Source of the DNA: Desulfurobacterium pacificum
GTDB taxonomy: Bacteria > Aquificota > Aquificia > Desulfurobacteriales > Desulfurobacteriaceae
Direction of reading: 5' to 3'
DNA: 64,000 bases
Assembly: GCF_900182835.1 (NCBI RefSeq)
Contig: NZ_FXUB01000001.1
Span: 1-64,000 of the forward strand
The notes beneath the pieces were generated by a model, which saw only the letters and a list, made by a program, of their open reading frames with translations, made no database searches and was not told the origin of the DNA. Shown here piece after piece: positions 47,765 through 52,607 of this stretch (position 1 is the stretch's first letter; the number at the start of each line of letters is the position of its first letter). The translations under genes and the position numbers were made by a program.

Positions 47765-49819
47765 TTATTGCGCGGTTTTCTGTTGTGTTAAATTTTCAAC
47801 GTATTCAACAGCCAAGTTAATGATATCTTCTTTAGATTTTGTTGAAGAAATAGCTTCGTCTATCATCTCTTTTTTTAATAGAAGTTTTTCGTAAATTTTC
47901 CTATCAATTGTTAGACAATCCCTTTGAGCAGCTCCTCCAACAGAAGGATTCAATTTACTGAGAAGGATAAAGTAATCAACGTAAGACGCCTCTTGACCTA
48001 TTCTATGTATTCTATCCATAGATTGTGAGAAATTTTCAAACCTGTAGTCAAGGCTTGTGTAAATAGCAGCGTCTGCAGCTGTTAAGTTTAATCCAGCACC
48101 TACTGTTTGCGGATGTGCAACGATTACCTGTAAACTTCCATTTTGAAAGTCAGAAATTATTTCTTTTCTTTCATTAATGGGAACATCGCCGTCTATTTTA
48201 GCCGCTTTATAACCTTTTTGAGTTAAGTACCTGCATATTCTATCTATTTCAAATCTATAAACTGACCATATAACCGTCTTTTTCTTTCCTCTTTCCTCAA
48301 GAATATCTTCAATTACTTCCAATTTTTCATTACTTACAACTAACGGTTCTGCTTCAGGGGATTCTTTTATGAAACCTGAAGTTATTTGATTAAGTTTGTT
48401 AAGCAAAGCCCAGATATGTGTGGCGAAAACAATAGCTTCTTCCTTAACTTTATTTTTTCTCCATCCTTCAATCTTCGCAATTAAATCCTTTTCTAATTTA
48501 AGATAGTATTTGGTAGTTTTTTCTTTAAGGAGAACGTCCCTTATTAAAAATCTTTTAGGAGGAAGTTCACTTAAAACCTCCTCTTTTTTTACAATAAAGG
48601 ATATACCATCAATAAGCTTTCTAAATTCCTTTCGTTTATTAAAGTAAATTTCCTCAACGCCGCTTTCCGAATCAATAAAGTAAGAACGAAAAATCGCTTT
48701 ACTCCTTAAAGCATGCGGGTGTAGAAATATCATTTGAGCATATATATCTTCAGGACTTCTTGTTATAGGAGTCCCAGTTAATATGTATCTTCTTCTGCTT
48801 ACTCTGGATAAGTAATAAATCCCTCGTGTTCGCTTAGAAAAAGTATTCTTAATTTTTTGAGACTCATCAGCTACTGTAACTTCCACAGTATTCATCACTT
48901 TTAGAGCTAAAAGAGCATCACTTATTAGCTTTCCTATTTTTCCAAATCCCTGTCTTTGTAACAGTTCAAGTTCGTAAATAAGTTTTTCCCTTTTCTTTTT
49001 TGAAAAGAGAGCTTTTCTAAAACCGCTTTTAAGCTTCTTTAAGAAGCTTTTAAGTTTATTGTTTGCATATCTCTGGCTACTGTCTTCTCCCGGGAATTTT
49101 CTAAATTCAGGTAAGAGTCTCCACCAGAAATCGTAGCTTAAAAAAAGATAGTTCAATCTATCTTTTGGACTTTCAACCCAATCCAAGATTTTTTTCCTTT
49201 TTTCTTTTCTATTCCCATCAATTGCAGGAAATACGTTAAAAGGAACCGTTTGGTTTTTCTTGATTTCTTCTATCCAGGTACTGTATATAACCGATACAGG
49301 AGCGAAAACCACGACTTTACTTATATTTTCTGTAAGAAAGAGATAATTCAACGTGTCTATCAGTGCCTTTGTTTTTCCTGTCCCTTGTTCCATAAATAAA
49401 GCGTATTGTCTATTCAATATCAAAAGCGTAGTTGCAATTTTCTGATGAGCATAAGGCTTTACTTTAGAAGGATAATCAAGCGGAAAATAAGAAGTTGAAC
49501 CAGTTAAATTAGCTTTAACTTTCTGATTGCAAAGATACAATAAACTAAGCTGTACAACCTCATCTTCTATTCTTTTCCTTTCTTCAAAGTCATCAGTTTC
49601 TGCAATTGTAAACTTTTCTAAAAGTTCATAATCCTCAGATTCTTGGTAAGGTTTGTAAAAAAACTCATAGGCGTAAAAGGGCAATTTAGCGACTATATCA
49701 CTTTCTTCATTGTATTTCTTTCTAACGTATAATGGTATAGGGTCAAATTCTCCAAACTGACCTTTCCTTACTAAAAAGTGGTCAGGGTTTGATTTTATTA
49801 TCATTCTGCTTCTTCCCAC
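47765..49819 (-). CDS. SNF2-family helicase, phage/plasmid-like
   Basis: This 684-residue protein is a SNF2 motor: Q-like YAHQKIATTLLIL near 123, P-loop EQGTGKT (145-150), motif II VADESQKIKN (an ADES variant of DEAH), motif III LTGTPITRSPED, motif V HPQTVGAGLNLT, and motif VI QSMDRIHRIGQ. The N-terminal 120 residues are novel to me. An insert at about 250-310 is basic. Such short SNF2 proteins occur in phages and plasmids. It stops near a coiled-coil gene and starts 46 bases from the end of the CRISPR array. GTG 49819 is used here; ATG 49804, with GGGAAG upstream, is equally plausible. Confidence 0.82.
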   Translation of the reverse strand: MGRSRMIIKSNPDHFLVRKGQFGEFDPIPLYVRKKYNEESDIVAKLPFYAYEFFYKPYQESEDYELLEKFTIAETDDFEERKRIEDEVVQLSLLYLCNQKVKANLTGSTSYFPLDYPSKVKPYAHQKIATTLLILNRQYALFMEQGTGKTKALIDTLNYLFLTENISKVVVFAPVSVIYSTWIEEIKKNQTVPFNVFPAIDGNRKEKRKKILDWVESPKDRLNYLFLSYDFWWRLLPEFRKFPGEDSSQRYANNKLKSFLKKLKSGFRKALFSKKKREKLIYELELLQRQGFGKIGKLISDALLALKVMNTVEVTVADESQKIKNTFSKRTRGIYYLSRVSRRRYILTGTPITRSPEDIYAQMIFLHPHALRSKAIFRSYFIDSESGVEEIYFNKRKEFRKLIDGISFIVKKEEVLSELPPKRFLIRDVLLKEKTTKYYLKLEKDLIAKIEGWRKNKVKEEAIVFATHIWALLNKLNQITSGFIKESPEAEPLVVSNEKLEVIEDILEERGKKKTVIWSVYRFEIDRICRYLTQKGYKAAKIDGDVPINERKEIISDFQNGSLQVIVAHPQTVGAGLNLTAADAAIYTSLDYRFENFSQSMDRIHRIGQEASYVDYFILLSKLNPSVGGAAQRDCLTIDRKIYEKLLLKKEMIDEAISSTKSKEDIINLAVEYVENLTQQKTAQ

Positions 49820-49865
49820 TTCAATTTTCTAGTTAATTATAGCGCTTTTCCCCAACCCTTGTACT

Positions 49866-50925
49866 GCAATCCCTTCCACTTTTTAGGGCATTTCAACCTA
49901 TGGTAGCAATTACGCCAGAGCAGTTTGAATTTGAGTCGCAATCCCTTCCGCTTTTTAGGGCATTTCAACGGAGAATATTCCGCCCAGACTTTGAATATGT
50001 AATTATCCTAAAGTCGCAATCCCTTCCACTTTTTAGGGCATTTCAACTTACGAACAGACGAGGATAGAAGTGTTTCTTACTCTACCCTCTGGAGCCAGCA
50101 TAACCCTCAGGTGGAGCTACTGGTTAATCGGGTCGCAATCCCTTCCACTTTTTAGGGCATTTCAACCTGCAAAAACCGGTTTAGAAGTAGTAGCAATCAC
50201 TCGGTCGCAATCCCTTCCGCTTTTTAGGGCATTTCAACTTACTTAAAGAAAAATGAATTGGTAAAAGTAGCAATTAATGAGTCGCAATCCCTTCCGCTTT
50301 TTAGGGCATTTCAACTGGGAAATTTTAGGTTGGAAAAATGAAATTATCAATCGTGGGTCGCAATCCCTTCCGCTTTTTAGGGCATTTCAACTATTCAAAG
50401 TTAGCCGAAATACATCGCAAAGATAATGGAATTTGTTGCAATCCCTTCCGCTTTTTAGGGCATTTCAACTCGTTGTGAAGATGAAAGCCTTTGGGAATGG
50501 TTTATTGAGTCGCAATCCCTTCCGCTTTTTAGGGCATTTCAACTTAAGGGAGATATAAAGGAATGCACAGAGTTAGTTCTTGTCGCAATCCCTTCCGCTT
50601 TTTAGGGCATTTCAACTCTTTTTTGAATTTCCATCAGAAGTTTAATTCTTGCGGGCAGTCGCAATCCCTTCCGCTTTTTAGGGCATTTCAACTCTGAAGA
50701 GGTGAGAGTTGAGTAAACGAACGGAAAAGGTCATAGGTCGCAATCCCTTCCGCTTTTTAGGGCATTTCAACTTTCGCAAAGAAGGCAAAGAAACCATAAT
50801 GTTTACCTCCAAAAAGTCGCAATCCCTTCCGCTTTTTAGGGCATTTCAACGAGAAGTATTAAAACAAAAAGGCTGGATAATAGTATCCAGGTCGCAATCC
50901 CTTCCGCTTTTTAGGGCATTTCAAC
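49866..50925 (-). CRISPR. CRISPR array, 14 repeats and 13 spacers
   Basis: Repeats are 35 bases. On the plus strand they begin GTCGCAATCCCTTCC and end AGGGCATTTCAAC, with CCCT and AGGG able to pair. Repeat starts: 49866 (first, 5' end degenerate), 49935, 50013, 50132, 50204, 50281, 50357, 50435, 50509, 50582, 50658, 50737, 50816, 50891. Spacers are 37-44 bases except the third (50048-50131, 84 bases). The distal repeats 1, 3 and 4 carry A in place of G inside the loop, and repeat 8 has GTTGC. The degenerate repeat at the left and cas genes on the right place the leader at the right, so transcription should run on the minus strand. Confidence 0.97.
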
Positions 50926-51099
50926 CCTATCCTTAACCTTAAGTATTTATTTTCAAAGGATTTAAAGTTAATTAAACTTCAGAGAGAAAGGTTTTAAGCC
51001 GTTGTTACACAGTATATTTCTAAGTATATAAAAGTTAGATTCCCCTAATTTCCCTATTCATCTTTCAAAGAACCGTTTCTTAACTCAAGTTTAAATTTT
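50926..51099 (-). promoter_or_regulatory. Putative CRISPR leader
   Basis: These 174 AT-rich bases separate the last repeat from the tandem Cas2 stop. No gene fits. The position next to the best-conserved repeat and to the adaptation genes makes it the likely leader, holding the array promoter and the integration anchor. On the minus strand TATAAA-like and TTAAAT-rich runs occur, but I cannot assign one -10. Confidence 0.55.
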
Positions 51100-51714
51100 T
51101 TAAATCAAAAAATCAAGTTTTTGATAAGGAGTTCCTATTCTTATAGTTTTCTTTTGGCTTTTATAATCAAGCGGATATATGTTAATTTTCCCGTAGTAAG
51201 AATAAGGAATCAATTCATTTATCAGATGTGGAATTAGTATTGGTTTACTGTCTATCTCAAACACGCTCAATTGAACTCTAATACCATAAGATTCAAGGAT
51301 TTGGGAAAGTTCTTTTCTAATGCTATTGTTGTGTATGTCATAAACTATCAGGTATCTACTTATTCTTTTGTTAGAGGTAAGCTGATAGTATATCTCTTCG
51401 TTTAGCATAATTTTTACCTGGTACTTTTCTGCTCTCGGAAATTCATTCTTTATCTCTCTGAGTACTTCTTTTACCTTTTTGGGCAAATAAACTATATTCT
51501 TCTTAGCCCATTTACTTATTGGGTAAAAGAAAACCCTGTCGTCCTTTTCTATCCACTCCTGGATTTTAAGAGTTATTATTTCTATTTGATTTTCGTAGGG
51601 AGAATAAATTTCAAAGCAACTATATTGAACTCGTTTACCGTATTCTTCAAGATAATGTGCTATTTTGTTTCTTATACGGTCATCTGTTATATCGTAGGCT
51701 GCTACATAGAACAC
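51100..51714 (-). CDS. cas2: Tandem Cas2-Cas2 protein
   Basis: Cas2 is normally 80-110 residues. This protein has 204 and contains two Cas2 ferredoxin-like domains. The first (about 1-77) has VAAYDIT with Asp8 and YGKRVQYSCFEI (25-36). The second (about 119-195) has LIVYDIH with Asp126 and YGIRVQLSVFEI (143-154), nine of twelve residues identical to the first. Both end with a strand of the YPISKW / YPLDYK type. A 40-residue charged linker joins them. A Cas2 dimer sits between two Cas1 dimers in the integrase, so the fusion could supply the dimer as one chain. It starts at GTG 51714 overlapping cas1 by 13 bases. Confidence 0.88.
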   Translation of the reverse strand: MFYVAAYDITDDRIRNKIAHYLEEYGKRVQYSCFEIYSPYENQIEIITLKIQEWIEKDDRVFFYPISKWAKKNIVYLPKKVKEVLREIKNEFPRAEKYQVKIMLNEEIYYQLTSNKRISRYLIVYDIHNNSIRKELSQILESYGIRVQLSVFEIDSKPILIPHLINELIPYSYYGKINIYPLDYKSQKKTIRIGTPYQKLDFLI

Positions 51715-52607
51715 TTTCTTCTCACAATTAGAGTTAACCAGTTTAAAAATTGCAGGGAAAAAGATTCTATTTCTTCCCTAATGTCTTCTTCCAACAGGAT
51801 TTCAAGAATTCCTCTAATAGCTTTTTTATCTATTCTGATTCCAGCGTTGGTTTTATAAAAATCCTTTTCTTTAAACAATCCTTTAGAAAACATCTTTCCT
51901 ACTAATTTGATTATTGGAGGTCGCGAGAGTTCAATTATGTCTGAAGCAAGAGTGGCATGCGTCCCCCTCCTGCAGTGGAAGAAACCTTTGAAAGGTTCGT
52001 AACCTTTCGCCAAGATGGCACACAGAATATTCAGGGTAAAAATTGAAAAGGAAAAGCTTAAGACAGAATTCACTTCATCTTCCGGAGGATGGTAGCTCCT
52101 TTTTGTAAATTTGAATGGAGGTGGAATTTCTCTTCTAATCTCATCGTACATGATTCTTCCCATCTCTCCATCAATTGTCAAAAAGTCATTTAGCGTCTCC
52201 GCAACTTCTATTTTCTCGCTTAAAGAATGGAATTTTTCTTCTCTTAAGAAGAAATAACGCTTTATCACAACAAGCTTCCTTCTCAACAACTCTCTTATTA
52301 AAAGGTTCTTTTCACTTTCAAAAACTTTGAACTGACACATTTTTAGGTTTAAAGTTTCACTTTTAAGTTCCCAGGGATTAACAAAAGCTTGAACTTGGAG
52401 CTGATTATTAACAAAGATAACAGGTCTTTTGTGTTTCGTTAGAAATCTCACAGCAGATGCACTTATTTCCACTCCGGGTAGTAGAATGAGATGACTAATT
52501 ATTCCCAATGGAATCTTTGTCTTTGCGCTTTCACTTACAATAATTAAACTGCTAGCTTCTTTTCTTACCTTTTTGCCGTAGCCAGTTACAAGGATGGGTT
52601 TTCTCAA
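51702..52607 (-). CDS. cas1: CRISPR integrase Cas1
   Basis: Cas1 is the nuclease-integrase that inserts new spacers. The 301-residue protein has an N-terminal beta domain and a C-terminal helical domain. The metal residues are visible as Glu148 (GEMGRIMYD), His211 (GYEPFKGFFHC) and Asp223 (ASDIIELSRPPI). It starts at TTG 52607 with AAGG close upstream. It overlaps the tandem cas2. No cas3, cas4, cas5-8, cas9 or cas10 gene is in the window, so the subtype cannot be set. Confidence 0.95.
   Translation of the reverse strand: MRKPILVTGYGKKVRKEASSLIIVSESAKTKIPLGIISHLILLPGVEISASAVRFLTKHKRPVIFVNNQLQVQAFVNPWELKSETLNLKMCQFKVFESEKNLLIRELLRRKLVVIKRYFFLREEKFHSLSEKIEVAETLNDFLTIDGEMGRIMYDEIRREIPPPFKFTKRSYHPPEDEVNSVLSFSFSIFTLNILCAILAKGYEPFKGFFHCRRGTHATLASDIIELSRPPIIKLVGKMFSKGLFKEKDFYKTNAGIRIDKKAIRGILEILLEEDIREEIESFSLQFLNWLTLIVRRKCSM

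Follow-up and report, generated by a model that had tools for sequence, protein, structure and literature searches.

A fused Cas2-Cas2 protein beside cas1 in Desulfurobacterium pacificum, a probable single-chain Cas2 heterodimer

Two Cas2 domains in one chain

A gene of the heat-loving vent bacterium Desulfurobacterium pacificum raises the question of how a single protein that carries the Cas2 motifs twice would fit into the Cas1-Cas2 integrase. The gene lies in the window, which is the whole stretch of 64,000 nucleotides analyzed here. The features around it are as follows.

49863..50925, minus strand: CRISPR array, 14 repeats of 35 nt (GTTGAAATGCCCTAAAAAGCGGAAGGGATTGCGAC) and 13 spacers
50926..51099, minus strand: leader, ~170 nt from cas2-cas2 to the first repeat, containing TTCTTTGAAAGATGAATA
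51100..51714, minus strand: fused cas2-cas2 gene, 204 aa with a GTG start, from profile matches and the AF2 model
51481..51714, minus strand: N-terminal Cas2 domain (residues 1-78), RVQYSCFE and YPIS, matching the first separate cas2 of relatives
51370..51480, minus strand: helical linker (residues 79-115), from AF2 secondary structure (helices 79-91 and 97-113)
51100..51369, minus strand: C-terminal Cas2 domain (residues 116-204), RVQLSVFE, YPLD and a D-hydrophobic C-terminal tail, matching the second separate cas2 of relatives
51702..52607, minus strand: cas1, 301 aa, in which the Asp of TIDG replaces the first catalytic Glu and the His and Asp ligands are retained

The first-pass annotation had proposed two complete Cas2 domains in this chain, and profile searches with each part alone bore this out. 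Residues 1-104 scored 63.4 bits and residues 105-204 scored 40.6 bits against Pfam PF09827 (cut-off 23.8), and the N and C halves scored 47.2 and 40.7 bits, respectively, against NCBIfam TIGR01573 (cut-off 24.5). Since both halves exceed both cut-offs, a single-domain Cas2 with an unrelated tail was ruled out. The motifs that had been claimed for each domain were also found, with YDI and YGKRVQYSCFEI in the N half, YDI and YGIRVQLSVFEI in the C half, and a YGxRVQxSxFEI block in each half of the 204-aa chain. The Asp after the first strand (YD, conserved in Cas2) occurs in each half of every one of the five fused proteins that we identified, and the closest solved relatives of either half in the PDB are Cas2 chains. 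The two halves have diverged, as had been suggested, and are 35-42% identical to each other inside each fused protein.

The reading frame has no internal stop across its 204 codons, and its start overlaps the 3' end of cas1 by 13 nt. Four other full-length, uninterrupted fused orthologues, 38-53% identical to the window protein, were found in four more genomes; therefore, the fused frame is neither a chance event nor an assembly error. A frameshift artefact was likewise ruled out by the intact chains in five genomes.

Structure prediction of residues 1-204 alone, which the annotation had put forward as a check, gave an AF2 model with a pLDDT of 88.4 and a pTM of 0.83 when second-gene rows were added. 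The model contains the ferredoxin-like Cas2 fold twice, joined by a helical linker of ~36 residues, and Foldseek matched it to Cas2 structures with a probability of 1.00. The pTM suggests that the predicted Cas2 domains hold a defined mutual placement. A first AF2 model built from five sequences was set aside, as its pLDDT was 68 and its Foldseek matches were uninformative.

The window locus and a type III-A locus elsewhere in the genome

On the minus strand, cas1 is followed by cas2-cas2, the leader and the CRISPR array. The fused gene, with cas1 on one side and a leader and array on the other, is thus part of an adaptation module. The coordinates given for cas1 by the first-pass annotation (52607-51702) were correct. 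PF01867 is the sole domain match of this 301-aa Cas1, and a reverse transcriptase domain is absent. In the array, 12 of the 13 spacers are 37-44 nt long and one is 84 nt, and the repeats diverge toward the distal end. The 84-nt spacer (50048-50131) is twice the usual length, perhaps from a lost repeat. Beyond the array lies a gene for an SNF2-type helicase (47765-49819, minus strand). A similar protein (L038:5207-7222, minus strand) adjoins the fused module of G017, with csx3 in between.

No effector genes were found among the ORFs read from 44 to 60 kb of the window. Another locus in this genome, L005 (~284-294 kb of the contig), encodes Cas10/Csm1, Csm2-5, Csx3 and a further Cas1, together with two Cas2 proteins of 90 aa and 107 aa from separate genes that overlap; an array lies after them. 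A Cas6-like protein of this locus falls just below its NCBIfam cut-off, and a CARF-like protein is a weak match. The repeat of the L005 array differs from the window repeat at few positions, and TTCTTTGAAAGATGAATA is common to the leaders of both arrays. Because the repeats are alike, the type III-A effector ~240 kb away probably uses the crRNAs of the window array and would serve both arrays.

Distribution of fused and separate cas2 pairs

The 22 Desulfurobacteriaceae genomes hold three kinds of adaptation module. In nine genomes a lone cas2 accompanies cas1; in the second kind, cas1 is joined by a pair of neighboring cas2 genes, and in the third by the fused gene. The fused gene, which five genomes carry (G000, G009, G015, G017 and G018, D. 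pacificum included), is always beside cas1 and has an array alongside in four of the five. It links two distinct Cas2 domains to one Cas1, making this a dual-Cas2 module. In other Aquificota families, two different cas2 genes flank a cas1 of the same clade (cas2-cas1-cas2), as seen at the 11 loci examined (L127, L130-L134, L138 and L140-L143).

Elsewhere in Desulfurobacteriaceae, L005 included, cas1 is followed by two separate, neighboring cas2 genes, and these correspond to the N and C halves of the fused protein in the same order. Diagnostic columns hold C with S or T (SCFE/YPIS) in the first genes and N halves, and V with D or E (SVFE/YPLD) in the second genes and C halves. The D-hydrophobic C-terminal tail is common to the C halves and the second separate genes. 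N halves scored best on first-gene profiles, and for the C halves, second-gene profiles gave no higher scores than first-gene profiles; the second separate genes align along the fused C half. An alignment that combined first and second separate cas2 genes was dropped since the second genes fell on the wrong half.

The search for other Cas2 chains with two domains, which had been suggested as a further check, yielded only the four additional Desulfurobacteriaceae genomes. A single-sequence scan of the genome contigs found no fused forms elsewhere, and profile scans placed fused chains only in Desulfurobacteriaceae, within what was searched. There was no match in viral contigs or phage records, and the matches in plasmids were all single-domain. 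Four samples of 396, 400, 386 and 394 genomes (~1,580) from other phyla, chosen as those of four other loci, gave single-domain matches or none at E<=1e-16; fusions of distant sequence may have escaped this threshold and the restrictive peptide patterns. The annotation had known of no described Cas2-Cas2 fusion, and none was found in the literature searched or among the PDB matches.

Several neighbors of the fused modules were noted. A SAVED-domain protein (L155:6765-8150, minus strand) adjoins one of them and a weak HEPN-like protein (L039:5483-5860, plus strand) another. Two leader-proximal repeat-spacer units at L039:5134-5273 are identical, which is a duplication. In G015, the fused module is preceded by a separate cas2b (L155:1377-1620) that seems frameshifted, with a 75-aa frame compared to ~107 aa; a sequencing error is possible.

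A proposed single chain in the place of the Cas2 dimer

We consider it very probable that the fused protein is a naturally occurring single-chain Cas2 heterodimer, which replaces the Cas2 dimer at the center of the Cas1-Cas2 integrase. One fused chain would occupy the place of two Cas2 proteins, giving (Cas1)2-(Cas2-Cas2)-(Cas1)2, and its halves would pair within the chain in the canonical geometry of the Cas2 dimer. This integrase would write spacers into the array directly downstream, presumably using its own neighbor.

Spacer length is predicted not to change if a single chain stands in for the Cas2 pair. Spacers beside fused modules had a median of 40 nt (35-44 nt, n = 21, one 84-nt spacer excluded), which agrees with this: on the assumption that every array receives spacers from the module beside it, their lengths could not be told apart from those beside separate pairs (n = 116, median 41 nt; p = 0.21 by Mann-Whitney). 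An array might also receive its spacers in trans from the other adaptation module. A tighter spacer-length ruler in the fused modules was unsupported (Fligner p = 0.47).

The canonical Cas2 homodimer (as in 4P6I, 7KFT and 8D3L) shares with the fused protein the Cas2 fold and motifs of each half, a gene directly after cas1 and the same expected place in the integrase. It consists of two identical chains, whereas here two non-identical domains are joined in one chain by a helical linker. The separate cas2a and cas2b of Desulfurobacteriaceae, such as those of L005, are alike in Cas1 clade, order of the halves, similar repeats and spacer length, but they are two overlapping or adjacent genes, and the fused C half lacks an insertion that follows YDI in the second gene. 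Cas2 is also known in longer chains as Cas2-Cas3 (type I-F) and Cas2-DEDDh (some type I-E), where the partner is a nuclease or helicase rather than a second Cas2.

In dual-Cas2 RT-Cas1 modules (Methylococcaceae, Nitrospirota and Vibrio), cas1 is also followed by two different cas2 genes. These modules carry a reverse transcriptase on Cas1 (RVT_1 was found in the examples), keep their Cas2 proteins separate and lie on other branches of the Cas1 and Cas2 trees, in contrast to the window module, which has no reverse transcriptase and a fused Cas2. One 779-aa ORF (L041:3991-6327, plus strand) combines reverse transcriptase, Cas1 and Cas2 and is followed by a separate second cas2. The type III-D RT-Cas1 module of V. 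vulnificus reportedly needs both of its Cas2 proteins for acquisition, and a dual-Cas2 integrase therefore has precedent. The single-chain form is without precedent as far as we searched and at the thresholds used. Distinct paired Cas2 proteins are an established theme in Aquificota, with three gene layouts within one Cas1 clade on a branch apart from RT-Cas1.

Possible functional asymmetry of the halves and spacer orientation

The canonical integrase is two-fold symmetric and, therefore, one-sided mutation is hard. In a single-chain Cas2 heterodimer, each half could be changed alone, which would open the ruler, the polarity of prespacers and the orientation of spacers to direct tests. The protein thus offers a natural means of asking whether the integrase halves differ in function, and the hypothesis that asymmetry sets spacer orientation is now well posed.

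As an addition to the heterodimer reading rather than an alternative to it, the halves may be non-equivalent, as the first-pass annotation had suggested, with their asymmetry picking the prespacer end for the leader side and, thereby, the spacer orientation. It is possible that asymmetry acts in this way, although we rate it as unlikely. The half-specific differences are constant across the five fused and twelve separate pairs, and the reported need for two distinct Cas2 proteins in V. vulnificus points in the same direction. The C half retains the free tail of the second gene, and the linker replaces the tail of the first. The C-terminal tail of Cas2 is the region that contacts Cas1 in known complexes. 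Because only the C half has a free tail, the two Cas1 contacts of the fused chain are unlikely to be identical. Against a role in orientation, a review describes adaptation in RT-active type III systems as without strand bias outside rRNA genes (PMC9048733). The search of the window array against phage records gave no match, so protospacers offered no reading of orientation. In its strongest form, which we hold to be similarly doubtful, the proposal is an obligately asymmetric integrase core, in which non-interchangeable Cas2 halves in one chain and an Asp-variant Cas1 would give a built-in direction (leader versus spacer side) and one spacer orientation without Cas4 or a PAM.

Origin of the fusion

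A different account of the fused chain is tandem duplication of one Cas2 domain, which would leave the halves functionally equivalent. The 35-42% identity of the halves is compatible with it, and in the Cas2 tree (92 columns) a clade of all fused halves was not rejected by the AU test (p-AU 0.175). Each half, however, carries the diagnostic residues of its own counterpart among the separate genes, in matching order, the C half with the tail as well, and separate tandem cas2 genes in that order with cas1 are widespread in Desulfurobacteriaceae. The Cas2 trees, which are weaker than the Cas1 tree, also placed N and C halves in separate groups, with C halves joined to the second genes (84/97). 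Taken together, these findings make duplication quite improbable.

The Cas1 tree (296 columns) placed all Aquificota dual-cas2 modules examined in one clade (100/99). The Desulfurobacteriaceae dual-cas2 clade is nested in it (100/99), the five fused modules form a clade inside the latter (100/99), and the single-cas2 modules of Desulfurobacteriaceae are placed elsewhere. Since the fused modules are one Cas1 clade, a single fusion of an already divergent cas2 pair is the likeliest history on sequence grounds. An ancestor of these Desulfurobacteriaceae would have had two divergent, adjacent cas2 genes downstream of cas1, which fused in frame via a helical linker. The earlier reading of a complete chain with diverged halves stood, but the divergence does not seem to belong to the fused chain: it is probably older than the fusion because relatives and L005 encode the halves as separate adjacent genes.

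Asp-variant Cas1 and Cas1-like proteins

The first metal-binding position is Asp in 15 of 15 Cas1 proteins from Desulfurobacteriaceae dual-cas2 modules and Glu in all 89 other aligned Cas1 proteins (sister cas2-cas1-cas2 clade, RT-Cas1 and single-cas2 modules). The codon of this Asp in the window is 52170-52172, and the variant is also present in L005 (8804-9742), L155, L160 and L038. The other ligands, His and Asp, are retained in these proteins. Because the first catalytic Glu of Cas1 is Asp, its integrase activity is putative.

The substitution in the linked Cas1 and a second complete module in the genome with a similar repeat and leader could be taken to mean that the fused Cas2-Cas2 has left spacer acquisition for another role, such as nuclease or scaffold, while the type III-A module maintains the array in trans, but this is the least probable explanation and very unlikely given that all 15 dual-cas2 Cas1 proteins share the Asp, some beside arrays of 24 and as many as 45 repeats, and that cas1, fused cas2 and array are kept together in four genomes.

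A Cas1-like protein of 272-273 aa (L160:6360-7178 and L159:6045-6866, both plus strand) matched Cas1 at 90.7% by hhalign and has no recognizable His or Asp ligands; judged from these residues, it is possibly a catalytically dead Cas1. It sits upstream of separate cas2a and cas2b genes in two genomes; in G009, a single array lies between it and the fused module, and the two face each other.
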